A program made the translations under genes and the position numbers. A stretch of DNA of 64,000 nucleotides from Herbidospora cretacea (lineage in GTDB: Bacteria > Actinomycetota > Actinomycetes > Streptosporangiales > Streptosporangiaceae): NCBI RefSeq assembly GCF_001570605.1, contig NZ_BBXG01000007.1:180042-244041 (forward strand). Direction: 5' to 3'. Below, piece by piece: positions 10,914 through 35,604 of the stretch (position 1 is its first letter; every line of letters begins with the position of its first letter). A model generated the notes under the pieces. It worked only from the letters and a program-made list of their open reading frames with translations, did not search any database and had not been told where the DNA came from.

Positions 10914-12098
10914 TCACTCTGGGCGTACGGTCAGCCAGGTTAGAGCCGGCGGAAGGTGCTGTGCCCACCAGTAGCCGTCGTGGCCGCCGACCCAGTCGAC
11001 GGACCGGACCTCGGCCCCCGCGGCGGTCAACTTCGTCGCCCATTCTCCCGCAGCCAGCCGGAAACCGCCCTCCAGGGTGCCCCCGCCGACATACGTCCTG
11101 GTCAAGGCGTGCAGCTCGGTCACCGGAGGGATGCCAGGGCTCAGCCCGACCGCCCCGGAGAAGACGTCGGGCCGCCGCTGGCCCGCGTTCAGCGCCCAGA
11201 CCGCCCCGCTCGACACCCCGGCGGTCAGCCAGCGGCCCGAGGCGGGGAAGCGCTCGTCGGCCCACGGGATGACGTCGTCGATCACGAAGGCCAGGTGGTC
11301 GCTGTAGCGCTGCGGGTCCTGGCCGGGGAGGTATTCGCGCGACCGCAGGTCGTCGGCGGTGTGCGGAGGGCTGGCGACCCCCACGACCGCGACCGGCGGG
11401 CAGGTTCCGTTCACGACGGCCGCGTCGAGCGTGCGGGCGAACGTCGGCAGCATCTGGCCGTCGGCCAGGCAGACCGCCGGGATGAGCCCCTCGATCTTGG
11501 GCGGCACGTAGAGGAAGATCCGGCGGGGTTCGCCGAGGAAGGTCAGTTCGTGCTGCTCAAGAAGGCCTTCGAGTTCGGTGGCCTCGGGCAGGGCCGGGGG
11601 CGCCTTGGGCCCGTGCCAGACCTGCTCGACGAACGATTCGAGGTTCCCCAGGGTGACGGTGATCACGGCCTCGTCGAGCCGCCGGATCCGGATCGACACC
11701 TCCCAGAGGTCGTCGGCCCCCTCCACCTGCCACAACACGAACTGGACACCGCTCCCCAGCCGTGGCGCCTCCCCAATGCCCCGCCAGACGACGTGGAGGA
11801 CGTCGCCTTCCGACCAGACGGCCATGTCGTCGTCACCGAGACGGGCCCGCAGGTCGGCGGGGTCGCGGGGGGCCCAGACACGTCTCAGCTCGGCTCCGGG
11901 CGGCAGTTCGGCGGTCCACATCCTTTCGGCCCGTGCCTTGTTGAGGGCGACGAGTTTCCGCTGGTGTTCGGCGACGGTCTCGCGGCCGGCAGCGGCGCGT
12001 TCTTCGTCGGTGACATCGAAGTGGTAGTTGGTCTCTAACTCGCCATCGAGCTCATATGTCCATACATCAAGACGATCTGACACGAAACGAACGTACAC
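10914..12098 (-). CDS. Enterochelin-esterase-like alpha/beta hydrolase
   Basis: A 394-residue protein read from a GTG. The N-terminal half (about 1-195) is beta-rich and resembles the accessory domain of Fes-type esterases; the C-terminal half is an Esterase_D-type hydrolase with RIFLYVPP, VIPWADERFP, the nucleophile motif GVSSGA and a terminal catalytic His in GGHDGYWW. Family members hydrolyse siderophore esters or other bulky esters in the cytoplasm. No siderophore genes lie nearby and no signal peptide is present, so the substrate is open. It is transcribed in the same direction as clpC but the 91-base gap with a likely clpC control region suggests separate units. Confidence 0.75.
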   Translation of the reverse strand: MYVRFVSDRLDVWTYELDGELETNYHFDVTDEERAAAGRETVAEHQRKLVALNKARAERMWTAELPPGAELRRVWAPRDPADLRARLGDDDMAVWSEGDVLHVVWRGIGEAPRLGSGVQFVLWQVEGADDLWEVSIRIRRLDEAVITVTLGNLESFVEQVWHGPKAPPALPEATELEGLLEQHELTFLGEPRRIFLYVPPKIEGLIPAVCLADGQMLPTFARTLDAAVVNGTCPPVAVVGVASPPHTADDLRSREYLPGQDPQRYSDHLAFVIDDVIPWADERFPASGRWLTAGVSSGAVWALNAGQRRPDVFSGAVGLSPGIPPVTELHALTRTYVGGGTLEGGFRLAAGEWATKLTAAGAEVRSVDWVGGHDGYWWAQHLPPALTWLTVRPE

Positions 12099-12184
12099 AA
12101 TCCGGTTCGCGGACGCCCAGGATCGATTTCACGACCGGAGTGCCGCTGGTCAAGTCGCAGGCCAGGCGGCCGGCCCCTCCTTCG

Positions 12185-12213
12185 TTGGGAACCAACCGAC
12201 AGCCCGCTACGAT
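12185..12213 (+). promoter_or_regulatory. Sigma-70-like promoter with long leader
   Basis: TTGGGA at 12185-12190 and TACGAT at 12208-12213 are separated by 17 bases. Transcription from here would give a leader of roughly 285 bases before the methyltransferase, passing through the repeat-rich region. Confidence 0.45.
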
Positions 12214-12274
12214 TCAGCGAATCCAGGCCGATCATGGGCGATCGGGTGGCCGGAGTGAGTCGGGTGGCGGGCCG

Positions 12275-12293
12275 GGCGGAGCCGTAACGGAAG
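12275..12293 (+). repeat. Intergenic repeat copy B (GGCGGAGCCGTAACGGAAG)
   Basis: An exact match to 2240-2258. It is followed here by short direct repeats and by hairpins GGGGC-GGAA-GCCCC and CGGGGGG-TCGT-CCCCCCG, so it looks like part of a dispersed GC-rich intergenic element rather than of a gene. Confidence 0.6.
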
Positions 12294-12502
12294 AAGGGCT
12301 TTCGCGAGCGGAGCGAGGGCTTTCCGAGCGGAGCGAGGCCTTGCCTGGGAGTGCGAGGGGCGGAGCGCCTTCGCCAGGGAGCGGAGCGACCCCGGAGCGG
12401 CAGCGACGTCGGGGCGCGACAGCGACCGGGGGAGCGCGAGGGGGCGGAAGCCCCTTCGCGGCGGGGGGTTCGGGGGGTCGTCCCCCCGTGTCTAATGGAG
12501 TG

Positions 12503-13324
12503 ATGGACCGCGAGAAGATCACACTCGCCGGCGCCCAGGAGACGATGCTCGCCACCCTGTGGAGCCGAGCTCTCGACAGTCGCTCCGCCCGCTCGATTCT
12601 TAAGGACGGGGCCGCGGAGCGGGCTGTCGAGCGGATCGACTACGACTTCGCCAAGACCGGCATCACGCCCACGACTGCCGCCGGGGTGGCGTTGCGGGGG
12701 CTGCGCATCGACGAATGGACGCGGGATTTCCTGCGCGCGCATCCTGTCGCCACGGTGCTCCATCTGGCCTGCGGGCTCGACACGCGGGTGCAGCGGATCG
12801 CGCCGGGGCCCCGGGTGCGGTGGATCGACCTCGACTATCCGGAGGTGCTGGAGCTGCGCGACCGGGTGATCGACCGGCCCGACGGCGACTACCACTCCAT
12901 CGCGTCGTCGGTGACGAGCGAGCGGTGGCTGGCCTCGGTCCCGGACGACCGGCCGACGGCGGTGGTGTTCGAAGGGCTGTCGATGTACCTGCGGGAGGAC
13001 GACGGCCGCCGCCTGATCGAGCGGCTGACCGGGCGGTTCCCCAGCGGGGTGCTGATCTTCGACTGTCAGAACTCGACGGGGATCCGGCTGCAGAAGCTCA
13101 ACCGGCCGGTCCGGCAGGCCGGGGCCACTCTCCACTGGGCCGTCGACGACCCCCGGGAACTGGAGGCCTGGCATCCGGGGCTGACGCTGGAGGAGGCGCA
13201 GCGCGTGGTCGACATGCCGGGGGTGGAGGACTATCCGACGGCGGGCCGGGTCGCGATGTGGATCATGGCGCGCTTACCGGGGTTCCGGGACATCGGCCAG
13301 ATCCTGCGCTACTCGTGGGGCTGA
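12503..13324 (+). CDS. SAM-dependent methyltransferase, leucine carboxyl methyltransferase (PPM1) family
   Basis: A 273-residue protein starting MDREKITLAGAQETML. The class I SAM site is VLHLACGLDTRVQRI, followed by the WIDLDYPEV acidic segment that binds the ribose, and VFEGLSMYL, all typical of the LCM/PPM1 family that in actinomycetes acts on small O-methylation substrates. The frame is open for 450 bases upstream but that text is intergenic repeat sequence without protein character. The start codon follows a stable GC hairpin closely, and only GGAG three bases upstream could serve as ribosome site. The 3' end overlaps the convergent membrane-protein gene by 16 bases. Confidence 0.78.
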   Translation: MDREKITLAGAQETMLATLWSRALDSRSARSILKDGAAERAVERIDYDFAKTGITPTTAAGVALRGLRIDEWTRDFLRAHPVATVLHLACGLDTRVQRIAPGPRVRWIDLDYPEVLELRDRVIDRPDGDYHSIASSVTSERWLASVPDDRPTAVVFEGLSMYLREDDGRRLIERLTGRFPSGVLIFDCQNSTGIRLQKLNRPVRQAGATLHWAVDDPRELEAWHPGLTLEEAQRVVDMPGVEDYPTAGRVAMWIMARLPGFRDIGQILRYSWG

Positions 13325-27123: not shown

Positions 27124-28659
27124 TCAGCCGGTGTGCTGCCAGCGCGGGACCGGGCGGAGCCTCGTCAGGACCAGCGCGACGGCCATGGCCAGCACCGGGA
27201 CGCACAGGGCGGTGAGCCAGCTCGTCATCGCCATGTGCCGGACGGTCTCGACCCGGCCGTGCACGAGGACGACCACGGCGAACTGGGCCGTCGCGGCCAG
27301 CGGGAGGAAGACGGCCAGGCGTCCCACGGTCTTCTCCGCTGGGGTCAGCGAGCGGCGGCGGACCACCAGGCGCCCCGCCCCGGCCGTGGCGGCCCAGAGC
27401 ACCAGGATCAGCAGCGGGCCGCCGCGGAAGACCTCCCAGAGCGCCGAGTAGACGGCGATCCGGTGCTCCCGCTCGCCCTCGGTCCGGCCCGCGCCCGCCG
27501 GGTAGGAGCCCAGGTGGTCGGGGCTGAACGCGGCGACCCCCTGGAAACCCCATCCGAGGGTGCGGATGGCGTGCCACGGGCGGGCCGCGTAGAAACCGGC
27601 CACCTGGAGCGGGGTGGGGTGGGCGGTGAAGTGGTACTCGTCCGCGAAGGGCGCCCAGTCCTCGTCGTGGCGCGACAGGCCGGCGGCCGGGGCCAGCTGC
27701 GGATCCAGGCCCAGCGAGGTGAGGTCGGCGGCGGCCGTGGGGTCGTCGTACAGGATGGTCCGGAAGACGACCTTGTGGTCGTCGAACCGCGCCTCGGTGA
27801 CGGCGTGGAAGATTCCGAGCCCGGCCAGCCACGTCGCGGCCATCAGCGCCACGACCCGGCGGCCGCGCACCCAGAGCAGCGCGAAGACGATCACCGGCAC
27901 GAACGTCACGTACTCGGGCCGGGCCCCGACCACCAGCAGCGCCGGGACCACGGCCCCCAGGATCCGCGGCACCGTCGGCCGCTCCCACAGCAGCAGCAGC
28001 GCGACGACGAGGAACCCGGCGGCGACCAGCGCGACCGGTTCGGCGTGGGGCGAGACGAGATACCCGGCGAACGCGGCGTCGGCGTAGACCAGCCCGACCG
28101 CCGACGCGAAGGCCGCCCTGACCGCAGCCCGGCCCGGGACCACCGCCACCAGCAGCCCGCAGACCACCCCCACGAGCAGGCCGAACGCGACGCCGAGCGC
28201 GCGCAGGTCGAGCGCGCCCGGATAGCCGAGCAGCGGCGTCAGCCACTTCCCGGCCGCCTGCGCGAGCAGGGCCGTCGACAGCTCCGGCGGGCAGTTCTCA
28301 CCCGTCCACGTGTGCGAGGTCCAGGTCGGCTGGACGAACTCCCACCCCGCCAGCCCCGCCTGCCGGAAGTTGGCCAAGCCGAGCTGACACGGCATGTTCT
28401 CGCTGGACCCGGCGAGCCCGACATGCCCGCCCGCGAACAGCCGGACCTGCATGATCGCCGCCCACACGACCCCGACGAACACCGCCACCAGCGGATGGCG
28501 GCGAACGGCCGCTCTCCTGCGCGGCCGAGGCTCCCGATGACCAGAAGCGGCCTTCCCGTCGAGCGCCGGCCGCCGCGAAAGGCGCGGCGGCCCGGGCCGA
28601 TCCGGCTCACGGGATCCGTCTTCCCGCGCCGCCGGGCTGTCGTGCTGGTCGACGGTCAT
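27124..28659 (-). CDS. Polytopic membrane protein, putative lipid-linked glycosyltransferase type
   Basis: A 511-residue protein. After a basic, Pro-rich cytoplasmic stretch of about 55 residues come some ten hydrophobic segments (for example PLVAVFVGVVWAAIMQV, ALGVAFGLLVGVVCGLLVAVV, ILGAVVPALLVVGA, VPVLAMAVALVL) and a large loop with WGFQGVAAFSPDHLG. Size and topology recall GT-C glycosyltransferases, but no diagnostic DE/DD motif was seen in the first loop, so the function is not assigned. The ATG overlaps the stop of the septum-formation-domain gene (ATGA), so the two are coupled. Confidence 0.6.
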   Translation of the reverse strand: MTVDQHDSPAAREDGSREPDRPGPPRLSRRPALDGKAASGHREPRPRRRAAVRRHPLVAVFVGVVWAAIMQVRLFAGGHVGLAGSSENMPCQLGLANFRQAGLAGWEFVQPTWTSHTWTGENCPPELSTALLAQAAGKWLTPLLGYPGALDLRALGVAFGLLVGVVCGLLVAVVPGRAAVRAAFASAVGLVYADAAFAGYLVSPHAEPVALVAAGFLVVALLLLWERPTVPRILGAVVPALLVVGARPEYVTFVPVIVFALLWVRGRRVVALMAATWLAGLGIFHAVTEARFDDHKVVFRTILYDDPTAAADLTSLGLDPQLAPAAGLSRHDEDWAPFADEYHFTAHPTPLQVAGFYAARPWHAIRTLGWGFQGVAAFSPDHLGSYPAGAGRTEGEREHRIAVYSALWEVFRGGPLLILVLWAATAGAGRLVVRRRSLTPAEKTVGRLAVFLPLAATAQFAVVVLVHGRVETVRHMAMTSWLTALCVPVLAMAVALVLTRLRPVPRWQHTG

Positions 28660-29372
28660 GCCGTCATCCCGCCCCGCAGGGTGCCGACCGAGATCCGGTG
28701 GCGGTCCTGGCCGACCCAGCACGAGCGGTCCCGGCCCAGGTGGACGCGCAGGCCGCGGAGGCCTCCGGCGAACATCGCCGCGTTGGCCCGGCAGCGGTTC
28801 AGGGTGAGGCCCTGGGGTTCGACCCACTCCCACTCGTGGGGCAGCGCGCACTGGACGTCGCGGCCCTCCAGGTTGCAGCGCCGGATCGACGCCGACTCCG
28901 GGCGGGCCATGATGCCGCGCAGCGGGGCGGTCAGCAGCGGGCCGCCGTGCGGGTGGGTGGTCGGGACCAGCAGGTCGCAGCGGAGCGTCCGGTCGCCGGC
29001 GGCCCACTCGTCGGGGGTCGGGACCTTGCCCCACACCGACACGCCCCACTGGGCGTCGTGCGGGCCGGCCGCCAGATACGGGCGGATCGGGCGGTAGTCG
29101 CAGCCCGCCGTCACCATCGGGACCAGCAGTTCGTGCGGAGGCCTGATCGGGGCCTCGGACAGCGGCCCGGTGAGCTGGGTGACCAGGTAGGTCTCGGTCT
29201 GGTGCGGCTGGTTGCACGGGACGGGGGGCCGCACGTCGCTCAGGGCGTACAGCTCCTCGGGCTGGGACATCACGTGGCAGCTGCCGACGGGCATCGAAGC
29301 ACTCGGGTGCGTGGTCGCGGGGGCGGCGCACGCCGCCGCGCAGAGCAGCACAAGCGCCAGGGTCTTGCCCAC
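28656..29372 (-). CDS. Septum-formation-domain exported protein
   Basis: A 238-residue protein starting VGKTLALVLLCAAACAAP, a signal peptide with a possible but weak lipobox (AAAC). It contains two copies of the septum formation domain signature, VPCNQPHQTETYLV and VQCALPHEWEWV, and eight Cys in total that could pair outside the cell. The GTG at 29372 has GAGGAGG just upstream and is chosen over the frame extending to 29438. It is coupled to the downstream polytopic membrane protein and divergent from the exosortase operon; its exact role is not established for the family. Confidence 0.7.
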   Translation of the reverse strand: MGKTLALVLLCAAACAAPATTHPSASMPVGSCHVMSQPEELYALSDVRPPVPCNQPHQTETYLVTQLTGPLSEAPIRPPHELLVPMVTAGCDYRPIRPYLAAGPHDAQWGVSVWGKVPTPDEWAAGDRTLRCDLLVPTTHPHGGPLLTAPLRGIMARPESASIRRCNLEGRDVQCALPHEWEWVEPQGLTLNRCRANAAMFAGGLRGLRVHLGRDRSCWVGQDRHRISVGTLRGGMTA

Positions 29373-29544: not shown

Positions 29545-30048
29545 ATGGCCGTTCGGGTGGCCCTTTCGGGGGTGCTCAGCCTGCTGCTGGGGGTCGTGCT
29601 GCTGGTCGACGACCGGGTGCGGGGCTGGGAGGCGGTGCTGGCCTCCCACGTGGTCGCGCTGGTCGCGCGGACCGAGACGGCGGTCAACTCCGTCATGGCG
29701 ATCATGTCGTTCAACGAGGAGACCGGCGACGCCGTCGGGCTGCGGATCTCGCCCGAGTGCACGTCGGGCTTCCTGATCGTGCCGCTGCTGGCGGTCACCA
29801 TCCTGATCCTCTGGCTGTCGAGGACGGTGACGTTCTGGCCGCTGGCCGCGCTGGCCGTCGCGGTCGCCGTCCTGTTCGCGAGCAACCAGGTGCGGATCCT
29901 CGCCGTGGTCGTGCTGATCAAGGGGCTGGGGTTCGACCCCGGCTACTACTGGGGGCACACCATGGTCGGCTCGGTGATCAGCGTGTTCGGGATCGGGGTG
30001 GCGCTGGTGGCGTACACGCTGCTGACCATGCGGGGGGTGCGGCGCTGA
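29545..30048 (+). CDS. Exosortase/archaeosortase family transpeptidase homologue
   Basis: A 167-residue integral membrane protein with about five hydrophobic segments. The family's three invariant active-site residues are present in order: Cys72 in ISPECTSGF, Arg117 in NQVRILA and His138 in WGHTMVGS. Exosortases and archaeosortases cleave C-terminal sorting signals of secreted proteins and transfer them to a surface acceptor. This one is short, lacking the extra N- or C-terminal domains of PEP-CTERM exosortases. GGAGGGGGG precedes the ATG. The TGATG junction with the GT2 gene couples them. Candidate substrates lie at 31438-31593 and 33530-34246. Confidence 0.82.
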   Translation: MAVRVALSGVLSLLLGVVLLVDDRVRGWEAVLASHVVALVARTETAVNSVMAIMSFNEETGDAVGLRISPECTSGFLIVPLLAVTILILWLSRTVTFWPLAALAVAVAVLFASNQVRILAVVVLIKGLGFDPGYYWGHTMVGSVISVFGIGVALVAYTLLTMRGVRR

Positions 30049-31415
30049 TGGGCTATCTCCTCGGGCTGACCCAGGCGTTCGCGCTGTTCCTGAGCGTCAC
30101 CTTCCTCACGTACGTGCTCACCATCGTCCGGCCCTACCTGCGGCAGCGGCCCGACCCGGCCGGGAACCCGGCCGCGTTCGAGTGGCACCTGTTCATCCCG
30201 TGCCGCGACGAGGCGGCGGTCATCGGGACCACCCTCCACTACCTGCGCGAACGGTTCTCCCACGTCAACATCTGGGTGGTCGACGACGCCTCCGACGACG
30301 ACACGGCCCGCATCGTCGAGGAGATCGCCCTCACCGACGCCCGGATCCACCTGGTCAGGCGCAAGAGCCCGGAGGCGCGCACCGGGAAGGGCGACGCGCT
30401 CAACGCGGCCTACCAGGCCCTCGACGACCACCTCGCGCCGGACGCCGACCGCGCCCGCCACGTGGTCTGCGTGCTGGACGCCGACGGGCGGCCCGCCCCC
30501 AACATGCTGAGCGTGTGCGCGGGCGAGAAGCTGTTCGGCGACCTCGCGATCGGGGCCGTGCAGGTCGACGTGTGGATGGTCAACCGCGACGACCGCAACC
30601 CGTGCCCGGAGCGGGGCCGGTTCAGGAACGCGTTCGGGCGGCTGCTGGTCCGGATGCAGGACCTGGAGTTCCGGGGACCGATCTCGGCGATCCAACTCGG
30701 CCGGCGGCGCAGCGGCACGGTCGCGATGGGCGGCAACGGCCAGCTCACCAGGCTGAGCGCGCTGGAGAAGATCGCGGGGCCCGAGCGGCGGCCGTGGGGC
30801 GGCTCGCTGCTGGAGGACTTCGAGCTCGGCGTCCAGTTGCTGCTCGCGGGGGAGCGCAACGAGTACACCCCCGACACCTGGGTCGAGCAGGAGGGCCTCT
30901 GGTCGTTCCGGCGGCTCATCACCCAGCGGACCCGCTGGGGGCAGGGGACCATGCAGTGCGCCAAGTACCTGCCGGAGATCTGGCGGTCGGCCAGGTTCAG
31001 CAGCCTCGGCGCGCTCGAAGTGCTCTACTACCTGTCGCAGCCGTGGATGCAGCTCCTCGGCACGCTCGTCTACCCGATCCCGATGCTCTATCTGGCCGGC
31101 CGGCTGGCCGCCGACCCGGCCGGGATGTCGTGGTGGCTGGTCGACGGCGGCTGGATCCTGTTCGCCATCTACGGCACCTTCGGCATCATGCCGTTCCTCA
31201 TCTGGGGGCCGCTCTACTGGTGGCGCTGCGAACCGGGGATCGGGCTCGGTAAAAGCCTGCTGTACGGGGTCGCCTACGCCTTTTACATCTACAACTTCTA
31301 CATCACGTCATGGCGCGCCTTCTGGCGGGTGATACACGGCAGAAGCGGCTGGGCGAAAACCCGGAGAAACGCGGAGACGCACGTGGCCGGAACGCCGGTG
31401 GCCCGGGAGATGTGA
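30048..31415 (+). CDS. Membrane glycosyltransferase, GT2 family (processive, QRTRW type)
   Basis: A 455-residue protein. After one N-terminal membrane segment comes a GT-A domain with WVVDDASDDDT, TGKGDALNAAY, the metal-binding VLDADGR, the acceptor-side LLEDFELGVQL and the product-gripping QRTRWGQG. Four C-terminal hydrophobic segments follow. This pattern is that of cellulose/chitin/hyaluronan-synthase-like enzymes that extend a polysaccharide or lipid-linked glycan and may export it. The start overlaps the exosortase stop by one base (TGATG). A 16-base-stem hairpin overlaps its stop codon. Confidence 0.87.
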   Translation: MGYLLGLTQAFALFLSVTFLTYVLTIVRPYLRQRPDPAGNPAAFEWHLFIPCRDEAAVIGTTLHYLRERFSHVNIWVVDDASDDDTARIVEEIALTDARIHLVRRKSPEARTGKGDALNAAYQALDDHLAPDADRARHVVCVLDADGRPAPNMLSVCAGEKLFGDLAIGAVQVDVWMVNRDDRNPCPERGRFRNAFGRLLVRMQDLEFRGPISAIQLGRRRSGTVAMGGNGQLTRLSALEKIAGPERRPWGGSLLEDFELGVQLLLAGERNEYTPDTWVEQEGLWSFRRLITQRTRWGQGTMQCAKYLPEIWRSARFSSLGALEVLYYLSQPWMQLLGTLVYPIPMLYLAGRLAADPAGMSWWLVDGGWILFAIYGTFGIMPFLIWGPLYWWRCEPGIGLGKSLLYGVAYAFYIYNFYITSWRAFWRVIHGRSGWAKTRRNAETHVAGTPVAREM

Positions 31416-31432
31416 ATCCCGGGCCACCGGCG
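31393..31432. terminator. Perfect 16-base hairpin at a convergent gene junction
   Basis: CGCCGGTGGCCCGGGA (31393-31408) pairs without mismatch with 31417-31432, leaving an eight-base loop that contains the GT2 stop codon. It lies between the GT2 gene and the LPFTG mini-gene and probably ends transcription from both sides. There is no T run. Confidence 0.6.
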
Positions 31433-31437
31433 CGGAA

Positions 31438-31593
31438 TCACCGAACCCGGTGCATCCGGAACAGCAATGCGCCCCCGATGATGAGAACGGCCGCCAATGC
31501 GATGATCACCAGGAGGGGAACTCCGGTGAAAGGCAGGACGGCGAGCGGGACTCCGGTCTGCCAGCGCGGCCCGTGTCCCCAGGATCCGTACAC
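31438..31593 (-). CDS. 51-residue LPFTG mini-protein, putative sorting-signal peptide
   Basis: Translation from GTG 31593 gives a short Trp/Gly-containing N terminus (VYGSWGHGPRWQTGVP), then LAVLPFTGVP, a hydrophobic run of about 22 residues (LLVIIALAAVLIIGGALLF) and the basic end RMHRVR. That is the tripartite layout of an LPXTG-type cell-wall sorting signal with almost nothing in front. The ribosome site GAGGTG overlaps the wecB stop, so this is the third gene of the regulator-wecB operon. There is no conventional signal peptide. It lies beside an exosortase homologue, and no sortase A-type gene is in the window. Confidence 0.65.
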   Translation of the reverse strand: MYGSWGHGPRWQTGVPLAVLPFTGVPLLVIIALAAVLIIGGALLFRMHRVR

Positions 31594-31602
31594 GAATACA
31601 CC

Positions 31603-32706
31603 TCAGTTCTCGTAGTGGAATTCTTCGGGAAGCTCGGCGAGGCCGAGAAGATGCGCGCACGCATCGGCCACCCGCCCGGCGGCGCGGCCGTCGCCGTAGT
31701 GACAGGTGGCGACGTGCCTGACCCGGCCGGCCACGGCCGACTGGAGGAACAGCCCGGCGGTCTTGGCGACGAGGTCCTCGTCGGTGCCGACCAGGTGGGC
31801 GCCGCCGCCGTCGAGGGCCTCGACCCGTTCGGTCGACTCGCGCATCACCAGCACGGGCAGGCCGAGCGCGGCGGCCTCCTCCTGGACGCCGCCCGAGTCG
31901 GTGATCGCCAGCGCGCTGACGGCCAGGAGCCGGGCGAACTCCCGGTAGGCCATCGGCGGCACGCACCGGATGTTGGCCCGAGGCCGGACGACCTGGTCGA
32001 ACACCGCGCGTACGGCGGGATTGAGATGGGTGGCGACGACGAAGTCGACGCCGGGATGGCCGGCGGCGAGCCGGTCGGCGACGCGGGCGATGCGCCGCAT
32101 GGGCTCACCCCACGACTCCCGCCGGTGCGCCGTGATCACCACCAGGGGCCGGGTCGGCGGCGAGGGCCGCTCCGACAGCACGGCGGCCAGCGCGTCGATC
32201 ACCGTGTTACCGGTGACCAGCACCCGGCCTGCGGGAATCCGCTCGGCGAGCAGATTCGCCCGCGCCCCGGGGGTCGGCGCCAGGTGGAGGTCGGCCAGCG
32301 GCGCGATCAGCCGCCGGTTGGCCTCCTCGGGGAACGGCGTGGCCTGGTGGCTGCGCAGCCCCGCCTCCACGTGGGCGACCGGGATCCGCCGCAGATACCC
32401 GGCCACCGCGCCCGCGAACGCCGAGGTCGTGTCCCCCTGCACGACCACCAGATCGGGCCCCCGCTGCGCGAACACCTCGTCGAGGCCCAGCACGGCCGAT
32501 GCGGTCAGCGCGGCCAGGGAGTCCCCCGACCGGTGCAGTTCCCGGTCGACGCGGACGCCGAACAGCGCCAGCACCTCGGCCACCACCGCGCCGTGCTGCC
32601 CGGTGGAGACCACCTCGACGTCGGCGAACGCCCGCAGCAGGGGGATCACCGGGCCGAGCTTGATCGCCTCGGGACGGGTGCCGGCCACCACGCAGACCCG
32701 CGTCAC
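31603..32706 (-). CDS. wecB: UDP-N-acetylglucosamine 2-epimerase (non-hydrolysing)
   Basis: A 367-residue enzyme that interconverts UDP-GlcNAc and UDP-ManNAc in the cytoplasm. Family landmarks are VVAGTRPEAIKLGPV, VVQGDTTSAFAGA, HVEAGLRSH..PFPEEANRRLI, ITAHRRESWG and the UDP-binding TDSGGVQEEAAALG..RESTERVE. The start GTG 32706 overlaps the response-regulator stop by four bases (GTGA). With the GT2 enzyme and the exosortase across the junction it points to synthesis of a ManNAc-containing surface glycan. Confidence 0.9.
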   Translation of the reverse strand: MTRVCVVAGTRPEAIKLGPVIPLLRAFADVEVVSTGQHGAVVAEVLALFGVRVDRELHRSGDSLAALTASAVLGLDEVFAQRGPDLVVVQGDTTSAFAGAVAGYLRRIPVAHVEAGLRSHQATPFPEEANRRLIAPLADLHLAPTPGARANLLAERIPAGRVLVTGNTVIDALAAVLSERPSPPTRPLVVITAHRRESWGEPMRRIARVADRLAAGHPGVDFVVATHLNPAVRAVFDQVVRPRANIRCVPPMAYREFARLLAVSALAITDSGGVQEEAAALGLPVLVMRESTERVEALDGGGAHLVGTDEDLVAKTAGLFLQSAVAGRVRHVATCHYGDGRAAGRVADACAHLLGLAELPEEFHYEN

Positions 32707-33362
32707 CAGCGGCTCCCGGTCCGGGCGTCGCCGAGCACGACCGCGATGGCGTGCGCCCGGTCGCGTGCGCCGATCTTGCGCAGGATCGACTTGACGTGGG
32801 TCTTCACGGTCTCGTGGGCGATGCACAACCGGCCGGCTATGGCCCGGTTGTCGAGGCCCAGGATGATCTCCTCCAGCACTTCCTGCTCACGCGGGCTCAG
32901 GTCGAACCGGGTGCGGTGGCCGCCGCGCCCGACGGCCGACCGGCCGAGCCGGTCGTCGACGATGATCTGGCCCTCGGCCACCCGCTCCAGGTGGAACAGC
33001 AGGTCTTCGAGCGGGGAGGACTTCAGCAGGTAGGCGTGCGCGCCCGCGTCGAGCGCCGCGCGCGCCAGGTTGACGTCGTCGACCGAGGTGAGCACCACCG
33101 GCATCACGCCGGGATGGGCCACGCCGATCCAGCGGCACAGGTCCAGACCGCAGTCGTCGCCGATCCGCGTCTCGCATATCACGATTTCCGGCGTAAGCCG
33201 GGAAATAAGCCGTCGCCCTTCCGAACTTGTCGTCGCGGAAGCGGCGACCGCGAATACGGGGGCCTGCCGGAAAAAGGCACGCAACGCGAGATGGGCGAGG
33301 GGCCCTTCGTCGACGATGACTATTTGGCACGTTTCCCGGCGGACAGCTCCGCGTGTCCCCAT
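32703..33362 (-). CDS. NarL/LuxR-type response regulator with Glu in place of the phospho-acceptor Asp
   Basis: A 219-residue protein with a receiver domain (about 12-130) and a LuxR HTH (LSPREQEVLEEIILGLDNRAIAGRLCIAHETVKTHVKSIL). In the receiver the acidic pair is D18-E19, the switch Thr is T92 and the Lys is K114, but the phospho-site reads VICETR with Glu64 where VLMDIR is usual. An Asp-to-Glu change commonly mimics phosphorylation, so the protein may be constitutively active or controlled without a kinase. No histidine kinase is adjacent. AGGAG lies five bases before the ATG. It leads the operon with wecB and the LPFTG gene. Confidence 0.87.
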   Translation of the reverse strand: MGTRGAVRRETCQIVIVDEGPLAHLALRAFFRQAPVFAVAASATTSSEGRRLISRLTPEIVICETRIGDDCGLDLCRWIGVAHPGVMPVVLTSVDDVNLARAALDAGAHAYLLKSSPLEDLLFHLERVAEGQIIVDDRLGRSAVGRGGHRTRFDLSPREQEVLEEIILGLDNRAIAGRLCIAHETVKTHVKSILRKIGARDRAHAIAVVLGDARTGSRW

Positions 33363-33529
33363 TTAGGCTCCTGTTCTTCGATGCTCAATGTAACGAGCGA
33401 ATCGAGCCACACAGGGCCCACGAGACTGACTCTCTGGAGTGAACTGACAGGTCCCTTACCGATTCCCATCCGGCGCGCCCATAACTTGGAGCGGCATCGA
33501 CTTATAGGAAGCTCGCGGAGGGTGTGCAC

Positions 33530-34246
33530 ATGTTTCTCGGACGTACTTTCACCGTCTCCATAGCGGCGGCGGCCACGCTGCTGGTGGGGATGACGAGCAC
33601 CACCCACGCGCGGAGCCCCACTGTCAACGCCTTCGGCGCGCGGATCAGCCTGCCGCTCGACATCACCTTCGGCCCGGCGCCGGAGGCCGACCTCGGCGAG
33701 CAGACCGCGACGCTCGCCTCGATCAACGTCGGCACCGTGTCGACGGGCGCCCTCAGCGCCGAGGTCGAGCAGAACACCACCGTCGGCACCGAGGCGGCGC
33801 GCGCGTCGGTCGACGGCCTGAACGCGACCCTGCTCGGCGTCGGCTTCAGCGCCGGCACCATCCAGTCGGAGTGCACCGCGACCACCGGCCTGCCCACGAC
33901 GGGCTCGACGACGCTGGCCAACGCGCAGGTCCTCGGCACCAGCCTGCCCTCCAACCCGGCGCCGAACACCGTGCTGCAGTTCCCGCCGGTGCTGCCGCTC
34001 ATCGAGGTCCGGCTGAACGAGCAGATCACCAACCCGAACGGCAGCCTGACCGTCAACGGCATGCACGTCCGCGCCCTGTCGGGCGTCGGCGACATCGTCC
34101 TGAGCTCGTCGACCTGCGGCCCGGCCACCCTCGACCCGCCGAACGAGGTGCCGCTCGCCTCGGGCGCCGGCCTCTACCTGGCCCTCGGCCTCGCCGCCGC
34201 CGGTGGCGGCACCCTGCTGATGCGCCGCCGCCGCCAGTTCGGCTGA
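33530..34246 (+). CDS. Secreted surface protein with C-terminal sorting-type anchor (choice-of-anchor P-like)
   Basis: A 238-residue protein. The N terminus is a signal peptide (GRTFTVSIAAAATLLVGM, cleavage near THARS). The middle, from VNAFGARISLPLDITFGP on, is beta-rich, Thr/Ser-rich and has two Cys. The C terminus is NEVPLASGAGLYLALGLAAAGGG followed by RRRRQFG: a short motif, one membrane span and a basic tail, as in proteins processed by sortases or exosortases. It resembles families annotated as choice-of-anchor P. GGAGGG precedes the ATG at 33530; the GTG at 33524 is less likely. Its position beside the exosortase operon makes it the main candidate substrate. Confidence 0.72.
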   Translation: MFLGRTFTVSIAAAATLLVGMTSTTHARSPTVNAFGARISLPLDITFGPAPEADLGEQTATLASINVGTVSTGALSAEVEQNTTVGTEAARASVDGLNATLLGVGFSAGTIQSECTATTGLPTTGSTTLANAQVLGTSLPSNPAPNTVLQFPPVLPLIEVRLNEQITNPNGSLTVNGMHVRALSGVGDIVLSSSTCGPATLDPPNEVPLASGAGLYLALGLAAAGGGTLLMRRRRQFG

Positions 34247-34258
34247 TCCTCGTAAAAA

Positions 34259-34285
34259 GGGCGCCTCGGTCCGAGGCGCCCTTTT
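34259..34285. terminator. Bidirectional intrinsic terminator
   Basis: GGGCGCCTCGG-T-CCGAGGCGCCC is flanked by AAAAA on the left and TTTT on the right, giving a U run on either strand. It separates the convergent anchor-protein and GT39-type genes. Confidence 0.85.
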
Positions 34286-35604
34286 CATTTCTGGACGTAG
34301 AGCGCGAACCAGGAGTAACCGAAGTCCTTGTAGTAGCGGGCCTCATAGCTTTTCTGCAGCGCCAGATAGGCGCGGTCGGTCTCCACGAAGGCGCTGTTCT
34401 GGTGTTTCCGCCCGCCGGACACCACCCAGACCCGCTCATGCTCTCCGATGTCACCGGGCTGGAGTTCGATCAGTTTTCGGTACGGCTCCGCATAAACTCC
34501 GGCGAACCACTTATAGGTGGCGTCGACATACAGAACCGCGTCGCCCGGCCGCTGCCGTTCGAGCAGCGCGGCGGCCATCGACCGCAGGTCGTCGGGGCGG
34601 CTGTCGGGCGTCCGGAGCGACAGGTGCTTGGGCACCGTCAGCGCGGCGAGCAGCGCCAGCCCCGCCCAGGCCAGCGGCCGGGGCCGCAGCCGGTCGAGCC
34701 CGGCCCCGGCCAGCAGCGCGACCCCGGGCAGCGCGAACAACACGTAGCGGGGGCTGTAGATCGGATAGACCAGCGAGATCAGCATCGACAGCGGGATCAG
34801 CAGCGCCCACGGCCCGGCCACCCGGCCCAGCGCCCCCCGCGCCCCGAAGAGCGCCAGCCCCAGCAGCGGGACGATCCCCCACCTGCTCCCCATGACCTCC
34901 TGGGCGAACGCGGGCAGCGCCGCCCACGTGGGCGACCGCAACCACCCGAGCTGGACACCCCGCTGCCCGGCCGCCAGCACCGCGAGCGGCGCGAGCCCGG
35001 CGCCCGCGATCAGCAGGGCCTGCCCGAACCGCCGCCGGTCGGGCGCGACGAACGCGTGCGCCACCACCAGCAGCAGCCCGTAGACGTGGCACCACCCCAG
35101 CAGCACGATCACGGCCGCGTACCCGGCGTGGTGCCGCCGGGTCACCAGCAGCCAGGTCGCCAGCACCGCCAGCGCCGTCACGATCGCATACGACCTGACC
35201 TCCTGCGCGTAGCGCGTGACCATGGGCAGCGCCGCGAACACCAGCCCGGCCAGCAGCCCGGCGCGGGCGGAGGCCAGATGCCGCCCCAGCGCGGCGATCC
35301 CGTAGGCGGCGGCGGCCGTGGCCAGCACCGACGGCAGCCGCAGGGCCAGTTCCGAGGTGGAGATCCACGCCACCGGCCGGAGCATCAGGTAGTAGAGGGC
35401 GTGCACCCGGTCCATGTGGCCGAGCAGGTCCCACAGTTCGCCGATGGGCCGCGAGGCGGCGAGAGCGGAGACCGACTCGTCCCGCCAGAACGACGGCACC
35501 CCCACGCCCCACAGCCCGATGACCAGCGCGACGACGGCCGCCACCGGTTCAGCCCGCCTTTTCGTGGAGGGCTTAACCGACTTTTCGGACAGTGCCATCG
35601 TCAT
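34285..35604 (-). CDS. GT39/ArnT-like polyprenyl-phosphate-sugar membrane glycosyltransferase
   Basis: A 439-residue polytopic protein with roughly ten hydrophobic segments. The first outside loop holds FWRDESVSALA, the acidic catalytic-type motif of PMT_2/GT39 enzymes, followed by VHALYYLMLRP, RLPSVLATAAAAYG and RYAQEVRSYA. These enzymes move a sugar from a polyprenyl-phosphate carrier to a protein or glycolipid on the outer face. The C-terminal 110 residues form a soluble, probably extracytoplasmic domain. Converging on the anchor-protein gene, it could glycosylate surface proteins of this locus. Confidence 0.8.
   Translation of the reverse strand: MTMALSEKSVKPSTKRRAEPVAAVVALVIGLWGVGVPSFWRDESVSALAASRPIGELWDLLGHMDRVHALYYLMLRPVAWISTSELALRLPSVLATAAAAYGIAALGRHLASARAGLLAGLVFAALPMVTRYAQEVRSYAIVTALAVLATWLLVTRRHHAGYAAVIVLLGWCHVYGLLLVVAHAFVAPDRRRFGQALLIAGAGLAPLAVLAAGQRGVQLGWLRSPTWAALPAFAQEVMGSRWGIVPLLGLALFGARGALGRVAGPWALLIPLSMLISLVYPIYSPRYVLFALPGVALLAGAGLDRLRPRPLAWAGLALLAALTVPKHLSLRTPDSRPDDLRSMAAALLERQRPGDAVLYVDATYKWFAGVYAEPYRKLIELQPGDIGEHERVWVVSGGRKHQNSAFVETDRAYLALQKSYEARYYKDFGYSWFALYVQK

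Follow-up and report, generated by a model that had tools for sequence, protein, structure and literature searches.

An exosortase P (XrtP)/CoaP locus of Herbidospora: a divergent member with a glycosyltransferase and an LxxTG microprotein

Described systems and the Herbidospora locus

In the general PEP-CTERM picture the exosortase EpsH occurs together with exopolysaccharide genes, and the best-known exosortase systems serve many targets; the acceptors of those targets are, to our knowledge, still an open question. Class E sortases have a preference for LAXTG. The PEP-CTERM/EpsH system combines an exosortase, a C-terminal tail made up of motif, span and basic end, and exopolysaccharide genes nearby (PMC7468200), and class E sortases with LAXTG substrates are known from actinomycetes (PMC13251363; see also PMC5148588). 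A third system already has NCBIfam names for its separate parts: XrtP, an XrtP-associated glycosyltransferase, a CoaP tail and a small LAXTG protein known from relatives. A literature search of a collection with few subscription journals found no paper combining 'choice-of-anchor' with 'exosortase', or 'exosortase' with 'class E sortase', and 'XrtP' only in an unrelated use; wider searches gave no title on the XrtP/CoaP system among the matches listed.

The window (the whole stretch of 64,000 nucleotides of Herbidospora cretacea DNA that was analysed) carries a divergent member of this exosortase P (XrtP)/CoaP system. The XrtP-type exosortase, of 167 amino acids (29545..30048, plus strand), ends in a TGA (30046-30048) that shares one base with the ATG (30048-30050) of a GT2 glycosyltransferase with a QRTRW motif (30048..31415, plus strand). 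On the minus strand run a receiver and LuxR-type regulator (32703..33362; PF00072, PF00196), WecB, a non-hydrolysing UDP-GlcNAc 2-epimerase for UDP-ManNAc supply (31603..32706), and an LPFTG microprotein of 51 amino acids (31438..31593); the GTG start of WecB overlaps the regulator stop by four bases (GTGA), and the microprotein begins with a GTG 9 bases downstream of WecB. CoaP, a secreted beta-rich protein, is encoded on the plus strand (33530..34246) and ends in VPLASG-AGLY...-RRRR. A first, sequence-only reading of this DNA had listed these genes, the coupling of the exosortase to the GT2, the minus-strand run and the motif-span-RRRR end of the secreted protein (here PLASG-span-RRRR), and checking against the sequence found each of them in place.

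The exosortase call made in that reading agrees with a match of XrtP to the exosortase/archaeosortase family model TIGR04178 (28.9 bits, curated cut-off 23). Against the exosortase P model NF012139 it scores 117 bits, under the curated cut-off of 200, and this is still its top-scoring exosortase subfamily model; judged by sequence, we regard it as a divergent relative of XrtP, assigned to XrtP through its partners. The GT2 exceeds the cut-off of the XrtP-associated glycosyltransferase model NF053846 (688 against 520 bits), as do CoaP those of choice-of-anchor P (NF040603, 90 against 27) and of the CoaP tail (NF053845, 40 against 35) and WecB that of TIGR00236 (320 against 210). Compared with the NCBIfam XrtP set (NF012139, NF053846, NF053845/NF040603, NF058583), the gene set of the window equals that of Pseudonocardiaceae loci, from which it differs in its low-scoring XrtP and in a microprotein that reads LPFTG and gives no match to NF058583 (cut-off 65 bits) at E up to 1. 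Streptosporangiaceae loci further carry a LuxR-type regulator and, in most cases, a WsfD/Septum_form pair. The 'undescribed system' of the sequence-only reading was therefore too strong a description, models being in existence for the exosortase, the glycosyltransferase, the CoaP tail and, for Pseudonocardiaceae, the mini-protein.

Like PEP-CTERM/EpsH, the window locus has an exosortase, a motif-span-basic tail and nearby glycan genes; unlike it, the system has a single target over the tail cut-off in its genome, no PEP motif, a Gram-positive host, a GT2 fixed beside the exosortase and an LxxTG microprotein. The microprotein in turn resembles the class E substrates in its LxxTG, span and basic tail, and class E genes occur in some loci, but it has next to no mature domain and its tie is to a single glycosyltransferase.

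Conservation of the locus and its proposed working

Two sets of related loci were compared: the best 80 of 110 GTDB matches, and 134 GT2 loci that were left from 168 after removal of 34 with identical GT sequences. The second set is a non-random sample with many close relatives, and since its 78 added stretches were chosen with second copies and low scorers first, odd loci are over-represented in it. Among the best 80 of 110 relatives, the same-strand gene directly upstream of the GT2 is XrtP in 80/80, WecB is near the GT2 in 79 and CoaP is present in 78. Order and strand change, but the gene content is kept in Streptosporangiaceae, Pseudonocardiaceae, a Frankia and a Kitasatospora. This conserved neighbourhood supports the earlier proposal that glycan genes are coupled to a sorting locus of the exosortase family. 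The sugar suggested with it, ManNAc, is plausible from WecB, but for 10 of the 134 loci a search reaching 6 kb from the GT2 found no WecB; some of these loci lie on truncated stretches and one (L227) has WecB further off.

We hold it moderately probable that the locus joins two modules, and we infer their cleavage and anchoring chemistry, topology, sugar and acceptor as follows. Module A would consist of a membrane GT2 glycan synthase and the one-span LxxTG microprotein, usually with WecB making UDP-ManNAc; module B would consist of the exosortase XrtP and one dedicated substrate, CoaP. CoaP would be exported and retained through its C-terminal span, XrtP would cleave it near PLASG by means of Cys72, Arg117 and His138, and the cleaved protein would be transferred to a surface acceptor, probably the glycan or glycolipid that the GT2 produces. 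The microprotein would be inserted so that the short N-terminus faces outwards and the basic end stays in the cell, and a class E-type sortase would cleave the LxxTG and join a peptide of roughly 20 residues to the wall, where it could serve the GT2 product, for example as a wall anchor. Should a sortase act in this way on a microprotein that is bound to a glycan synthase, the microprotein would represent a new tie between glycan and Gram-positive wall.

The LxxTG microprotein and nearby sortases

The microprotein begins with the start residue and Tyr, followed by LPFTG, one hydrophobic span and a basic end, and no N-terminal signal peptide was seen in its 51 residues by eye. On sequence evidence we take it as a real gene, because six comparisons among Herbidospora copies give a dN/dS of about 0.09-0.13 and a counterpart was found in 80/80 related loci (best 80 of 110) by a rule that includes LxxTG. 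In the 134-locus set, where detection required LxxTG and [MVLI]Tyr (LxxTG only in the 80-locus set), it was found near the GT2 in 132 loci, including 12/14 without XrtP and 3/3 in which the XrtP triad is lost; the background was two chance-type matches in 0.74 Mb of flank. Across these sequences L and TG are kept and the third position varies, a conservation of LxxTG and Tyr that is partly by construction, both being part of the detection rule. The two loci without it, L236 and L039, both lack XrtP and both sit on long branches. It was lost along with XrtP in two of four tree pairs, so the independent-pair test does not support its independence of XrtP. The cut-off of the microprotein model was exceeded in 126 of 390 Pseudonocardiaceae genomes, 124 of them within the 135 GT genomes. 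Four loci lack both GT2 and XrtP, and in three of them, two of the four having been chosen for a weak microprotein score, the microprotein is eroded, with loss of the start-Tyr in three and of LxxTG in two of those.

Of the 134 loci, 12 have a sortase gene no more than 6 kb from the GT2; all 12 belong to the 22 without CoaP (12/22, against 0/112 CoaP loci), and the other 10 CoaP-less loci have none at that distance. The four locus sortases tested were all over the class E cut-off, and in L222, L224, L225, L226 and L228 the order GT, microprotein, WecB, sortase is kept on one strand. The window genome encodes seven sortases, of which the one tested is class E; a search of it for LPXTG anchors gave 14 weak matches and no clear LPXTG protein.

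These observations also bear on the somewhat unlikely reading that the microprotein serves the GT2 as a small structural subunit which no sortase ever cuts, its likeness to LxxTG being incidental. Small subunits of this kind are PgaD and IcaD, which accompany PgaC and IcaA. That the microprotein keeps closer company with the GT2 than with XrtP, WecB or CoaP would suit such a role, as would the missing signal peptide, the near lack of a mature domain and the ten CoaP-less loci with no sortase nearby. The window copy reaches no cut-off of the sortase-signal or LAXTG_small_WW models, and three of the seven relatives' microproteins tested fall under the sortase-signal cut-offs too; the other four, however, pass both TIGR01167 and NF058582 (NF058583 is passed by three of the seven, all Pseudonocardiaceae). 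The sortase genes that share a same-strand run with the microprotein in several loci, and the kept L and TG around a variable third position, with the caveat that LxxTG was also a search rule, argue against the subunit reading.

XrtP, its target and the remaining alternatives

The Cys72/Arg117/His138 triad, residues whose conserved counterparts in the exosortase/archaeosortase family are presumably catalytic, is intact in the window XrtP and, in the alignment, in 79/80 relatives (best 80 of 110). The AlphaFold2 model of XrtP has a pLDDT of 89; solved structures searched by sequence with an XrtP alignment gave a single match (E 0.33), and neither the XrtP model nor that of CoaP, which has strands between residues 33 and 196 and a helix at 212-237, matched the PDB in Foldseek at E up to 0.001. 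Among the 134 loci, CoaP lies near the GT2 in 112 of the 117 with an intact XrtP triad and in none of the 17 others (0/3 with the triad lost, 0/14 without XrtP). The lost triads fall at two separate positions on the GT tree. In a tree test of XrtP and CoaP with four independent pairs, CoaP changed in the same direction in three to four and never in the opposite one (sign test, p 0.125 at best). In the window genome TIGR04178 is matched once at E up to 0.1 and a single CoaP tail exceeds its cut-off, in keeping with the dedicated system that the sequence-only reading had envisaged, and CoaP is likely the single local exosortase target. A second choice-of-anchor P protein of the window genome, and an extra one beside WecB in Lentzea-type loci, were considered as targets and set aside, their ends having no C-terminal anchor. 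The main counter-example to the pairing of XrtP with CoaP lies in three of the four loci without GT2 and XrtP, which keep CoaP with a recognisable tail; loci were collected via the GT2, so those with CoaP and no XrtP are under-counted. Intact triads without CoaP also tell against it: Sinosporangium album has one, with no choice-of-anchor P protein found in its genome, and so do four further loci, L237-L240.

It is unlikely, in our judgement, that XrtP works chiefly with the GT2, for instance in exporting or assembling the glycan, with CoaP cleavage secondary. The fixed position of XrtP directly upstream of the GT2 and the overlapping codons in the window would be expected of such a partner, and three loci keep an XrtP open frame beside the GT2 despite lost triad residues. 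The XrtP of Sinosporangium album, kept in the absence of CoaP, would fit as well. Against this reading stand the 14 GT2 loci that do without XrtP, and the intact triad of every one of the 112 CoaP loci.

Quite unlikely, too, is a joint scheme in which the microprotein, fixed to the wall, accepts or primes the GT2 glycan, perhaps via its conserved second-residue Tyr. The sortase would fix the sugar chain to the wall and the exosortase would then load CoaP on the chain, the exosortase module having been lost or replaced by a locus sortase in some lineages. If true, two unrelated transpeptidases would serve one surface glycan.

The sequence-only reading had taken both tailed proteins as targets of one exosortase. 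For the microprotein we find this very improbable. It shares a locus with CoaP and a similar tail layout of motif, span and basic end, and the two GT loci that lack it also lack XrtP; but it is kept in most XrtP-less loci and in all triad-lost ones, its pentad is unlike the PLASG-type tail of CoaP, and the sortase-signal matches and sortase-bearing runs described above speak against such a target too. Hardly credible, finally, is mere adjacency through shared regulation or inheritance with no joint product. Thin tree-corrected support for correlated loss would fit it, but the content of the locus is kept through rearrangement in the hosts named above, and locus genes are lost jointly.

Under the two-module reading a single exosortase would have one local target and a fixed partner glycosyltransferase, in actinomycetes that can be cultured. 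Natural comparisons exist in the triad-less exosortases, the class E sortase loci and the loci without either, and a few gene deletions would directly test the link between exosortase and glycan.

Optional neighbours and the regulator

A WsfD-like membrane hexosyltransferase (27124..28659, minus strand; NF051875, 266 bits, cut-off 80) and a Septum_form-domain protein (28656..29372, minus strand; PF13845, 48 bits) are optional neighbours, the pair being found near 17 of the 134 GT2 loci. The 'GT39-like' gene that the earlier reading counted in is a weak call (PF13231, 20.6 bits, under the cut-off of 26.1), and we do not regard it as part of the system, as it was matched in 6/80 loci (best 80 of 110), all Herbidospora. 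Nor is the LuxR-type regulator a general component: among the best 80 of 110 relatives it is found no more than 4 kb from the GT2 in 11/11 Streptosporangiaceae loci but in only 1/69 others (L073, Amycolatopsis), and is mainly a Streptosporangiaceae addition. In the regulator of the window and in six of seven other locus copies Glu replaces the usual phospho-acceptor Asp, which is present in L068.

Gene content and a modular reading of the locus

Six genes span positions 29545-34246 of the window, as read from the sequence. An XrtP-type exosortase (triad Cys72/Arg117/His138) is followed by the XrtP-associated glycosyltransferase GT2, whose start codon overlaps the XrtP stop by one base. On the opposite strand lie a regulator, the UDP-GlcNAc 2-epimerase WecB, whose start overlaps the regulator stop by four bases, and a 51-residue LPFTG protein (with its LxxTG counterparts, the microprotein); the last of the six is CoaP, a secreted choice-of-anchor P protein with a C-terminal tail. 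The best-supported reading is of a GT2-microprotein module, usually with WecB, on which an XrtP-CoaP module rides, and this modular arrangement makes the exosortase-glycan question testable.

GT2 (688 bits, cut-off 520), the CoaP domain (90, cut-off 27), the CoaP tail (40, cut-off 35) and WecB (320, cut-off 210) all exceed their NCBIfam cut-offs, and are thus components already known to curators. The sequence-only reading had put the locus forward as its strongest candidate for an undescribed system, which is not supported for parts that NCBIfam has already named (GT2 and the CoaP domain and tail have models); no paper on the XrtP/CoaP system was among those listed in the literature searches. 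The proposed exosortase-family membership was borne out by the general family model (28.9 bits, cut-off 23), but the protein scores 117 bits against the XrtP model cut-off of 200, and is therefore a divergent relative. Its predicted structure is mainly helical (pLDDT 89), and CoaP is predicted as a beta-rich domain with a single helix after it (pLDDT 86). With E up to 0.001 allowed, neither model had a match in the PDB.

In the receiver domain of the regulator (32703-33362, minus strand), a Glu (CETRIGDD) occupies the position expected for the phospho-acceptor Asp, as it does in six of seven other locus copies, the exception being L068 (L-numbers denote the GT2 loci compared), which has Asp. 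Judged from these residues, the substitution suggests phosphorylation-independent control.

Conservation and co-occurrence of XrtP with CoaP

Among the best 80 of 110 related GT2 loci in named genomes, the closest to the window, itself part of a Herbidospora genome, belong to six Herbidospora species; eleven of the 80 are from Streptosporangiaceae and most others from Pseudonocardiaceae, plus a Frankia and a Kitasatospora. XrtP lies directly upstream of GT2 on the same strand in all 80, with WecB in 79 and CoaP in 78, in agreement with the neighbourhood conservation that the sequence-only reading called for. In a phylum sample of 396 genomes, the XrtP model matched two, one of them the window's own; hits to the GT2 model came from 135 of the 390 Pseudonocardiaceae genomes searched. 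Sinosporangium album (L069) keeps GT2, the microprotein and an XrtP with intact triad, WecB being a C-terminal fragment; no choice-of-anchor P match was found in its genome despite the intact triad.

The window, these 80 loci, nine loci from an order sample and 78 chosen Pseudonocardiaceae stretches gave 168 loci, or 134 once identical GT sequences were removed. The triad is intact in 117 of the 134, and CoaP is near in 112 of these. CoaP was found in none of the 14 loci where XrtP is absent and beside none of the three XrtPs that have lost triad residues (L125, VHH; L219, NRA; L235, HRA). On the GT tree the lost triads occupy two positions. The L219/L235 pair has six loci lacking XrtP as its sister group (SH-aLRT 90), a pattern resembling decay of XrtP and then its loss. 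The tree-corrected comparison comprises four independent pairs only, so that the locus counts are suggestive, short of proof: CoaP goes with XrtP in three to four of the pairs and never against it (p 0.125 at best), and the microprotein goes with XrtP in two (L236 and L039, both long branches) and stays the same in the other two.

The window's genome holds a single match to the exosortase-family model (E up to 0.1) and a single CoaP tail over cut-off, with five more below it, consistent with the dedicated system that had been proposed; no C-terminal anchor was found on a second choice-of-anchor P protein elsewhere in this genome. Both local tailed proteins had been put forward as exosortase targets. 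CoaP is likely the target; the LPFTG protein fares worse, since microproteins are present in 12 of the 14 loci without XrtP (and in all three with a lost triad).

Of 390 Pseudonocardiaceae genomes, 126 score above the cut-off of the microprotein model, 124 of them among the 135 with GT2; the other 11 genomes with GT2 do not exceed it. We examined four stretches, from the two exceptions and from two genomes with weaker matches, and found neither GT2 nor XrtP in any. The start-Tyr of the microprotein is lost in three, two of which have also lost LxxTG; the fourth retains both. A CoaP with a recognisable tail persists in three of these stretches. Unless the decay is recent or another exosortase serves, this argues against CoaP depending strictly on an XrtP nearby.

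Three loci of this kind occur in Amycolatopsis anabasis: L125 (at the place also labelled L220), L219 and L298. The last has another exosortase near a choice-of-anchor P protein of differing tail motif (VPVAAPEAVG), and a distant GT2.

The microprotein and sortases near GT2

Rather than an exosortase target, the microprotein is more probably a substrate of sortase type or a small subunit of GT2. A search rule for C-termini that combine LxxTG with a hydrophobic span plus basic residues located it beside the XrtP/GT2 pair in all of the best 80 of 110 loci. A start codon and Tyr precede the motif in 79 (Ile-Tyr in L069), and 77 of these 79 encode 49 to 64 residues. The motif reads LPFTG in Herbidospora, the Frankia and four further loci from Streptosporangiaceae, LPGTG in Acrocarpospora and LAxTG in all remaining loci. 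The NCBIfam LAXTG small protein model NF058583 recognises the three Pseudonocardiaceae microproteins tested (90 to 95 bits, cut-off 65) and does not recognise that of the window. Comparisons within Herbidospora give a dN/dS of about 0.09 to 0.13. With Tyr added, the rule hit 132 of 134 near regions (all but L236 and L039), against two hits in 0.74 Mb of flank and one unconvincing hit among twelve GT loci without XrtP (L039-L050).

Twelve of the 134 loci, none of them among the 112 with CoaP, have a sortase gene no further than 6 kb from GT2. The twelve are L219 and L235, six without XrtP (L222, L224-L228), and L237-L240, which have an intact triad and no CoaP; in the remaining ten CoaP-less loci no sortase was found near GT2. 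The four locus sortases tested score 188 to 217 bits, all above the class E threshold of 160. GT2, microprotein, WecB and sortase follow one another on one strand in L222, L224, L225, L226 and L228. Sortases occur in all 12 genomes searched; the window's genome has seven, and the one tested is of class E.

In L237, WecB, a DUF11-type protein ending in a span and RRR, the microprotein, XrtP, GT2, a Septum_form protein, WsfD and the sortase run in one direction. The DUF11-type protein (4622-5656 of L237) and another in or near the locus (11499-13226) share the span-RRR end, and may be alternative exosortase cargo, the triad being intact and CoaP absent. In the window, the gene for a WsfD-like hexosyltransferase is paired with that for a Septum_form-domain protein (27124-29372, minus strand). 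The pair recurs near 17 of the 134 GT2 loci, and is also present in distant Pseudonocardiaceae loci.
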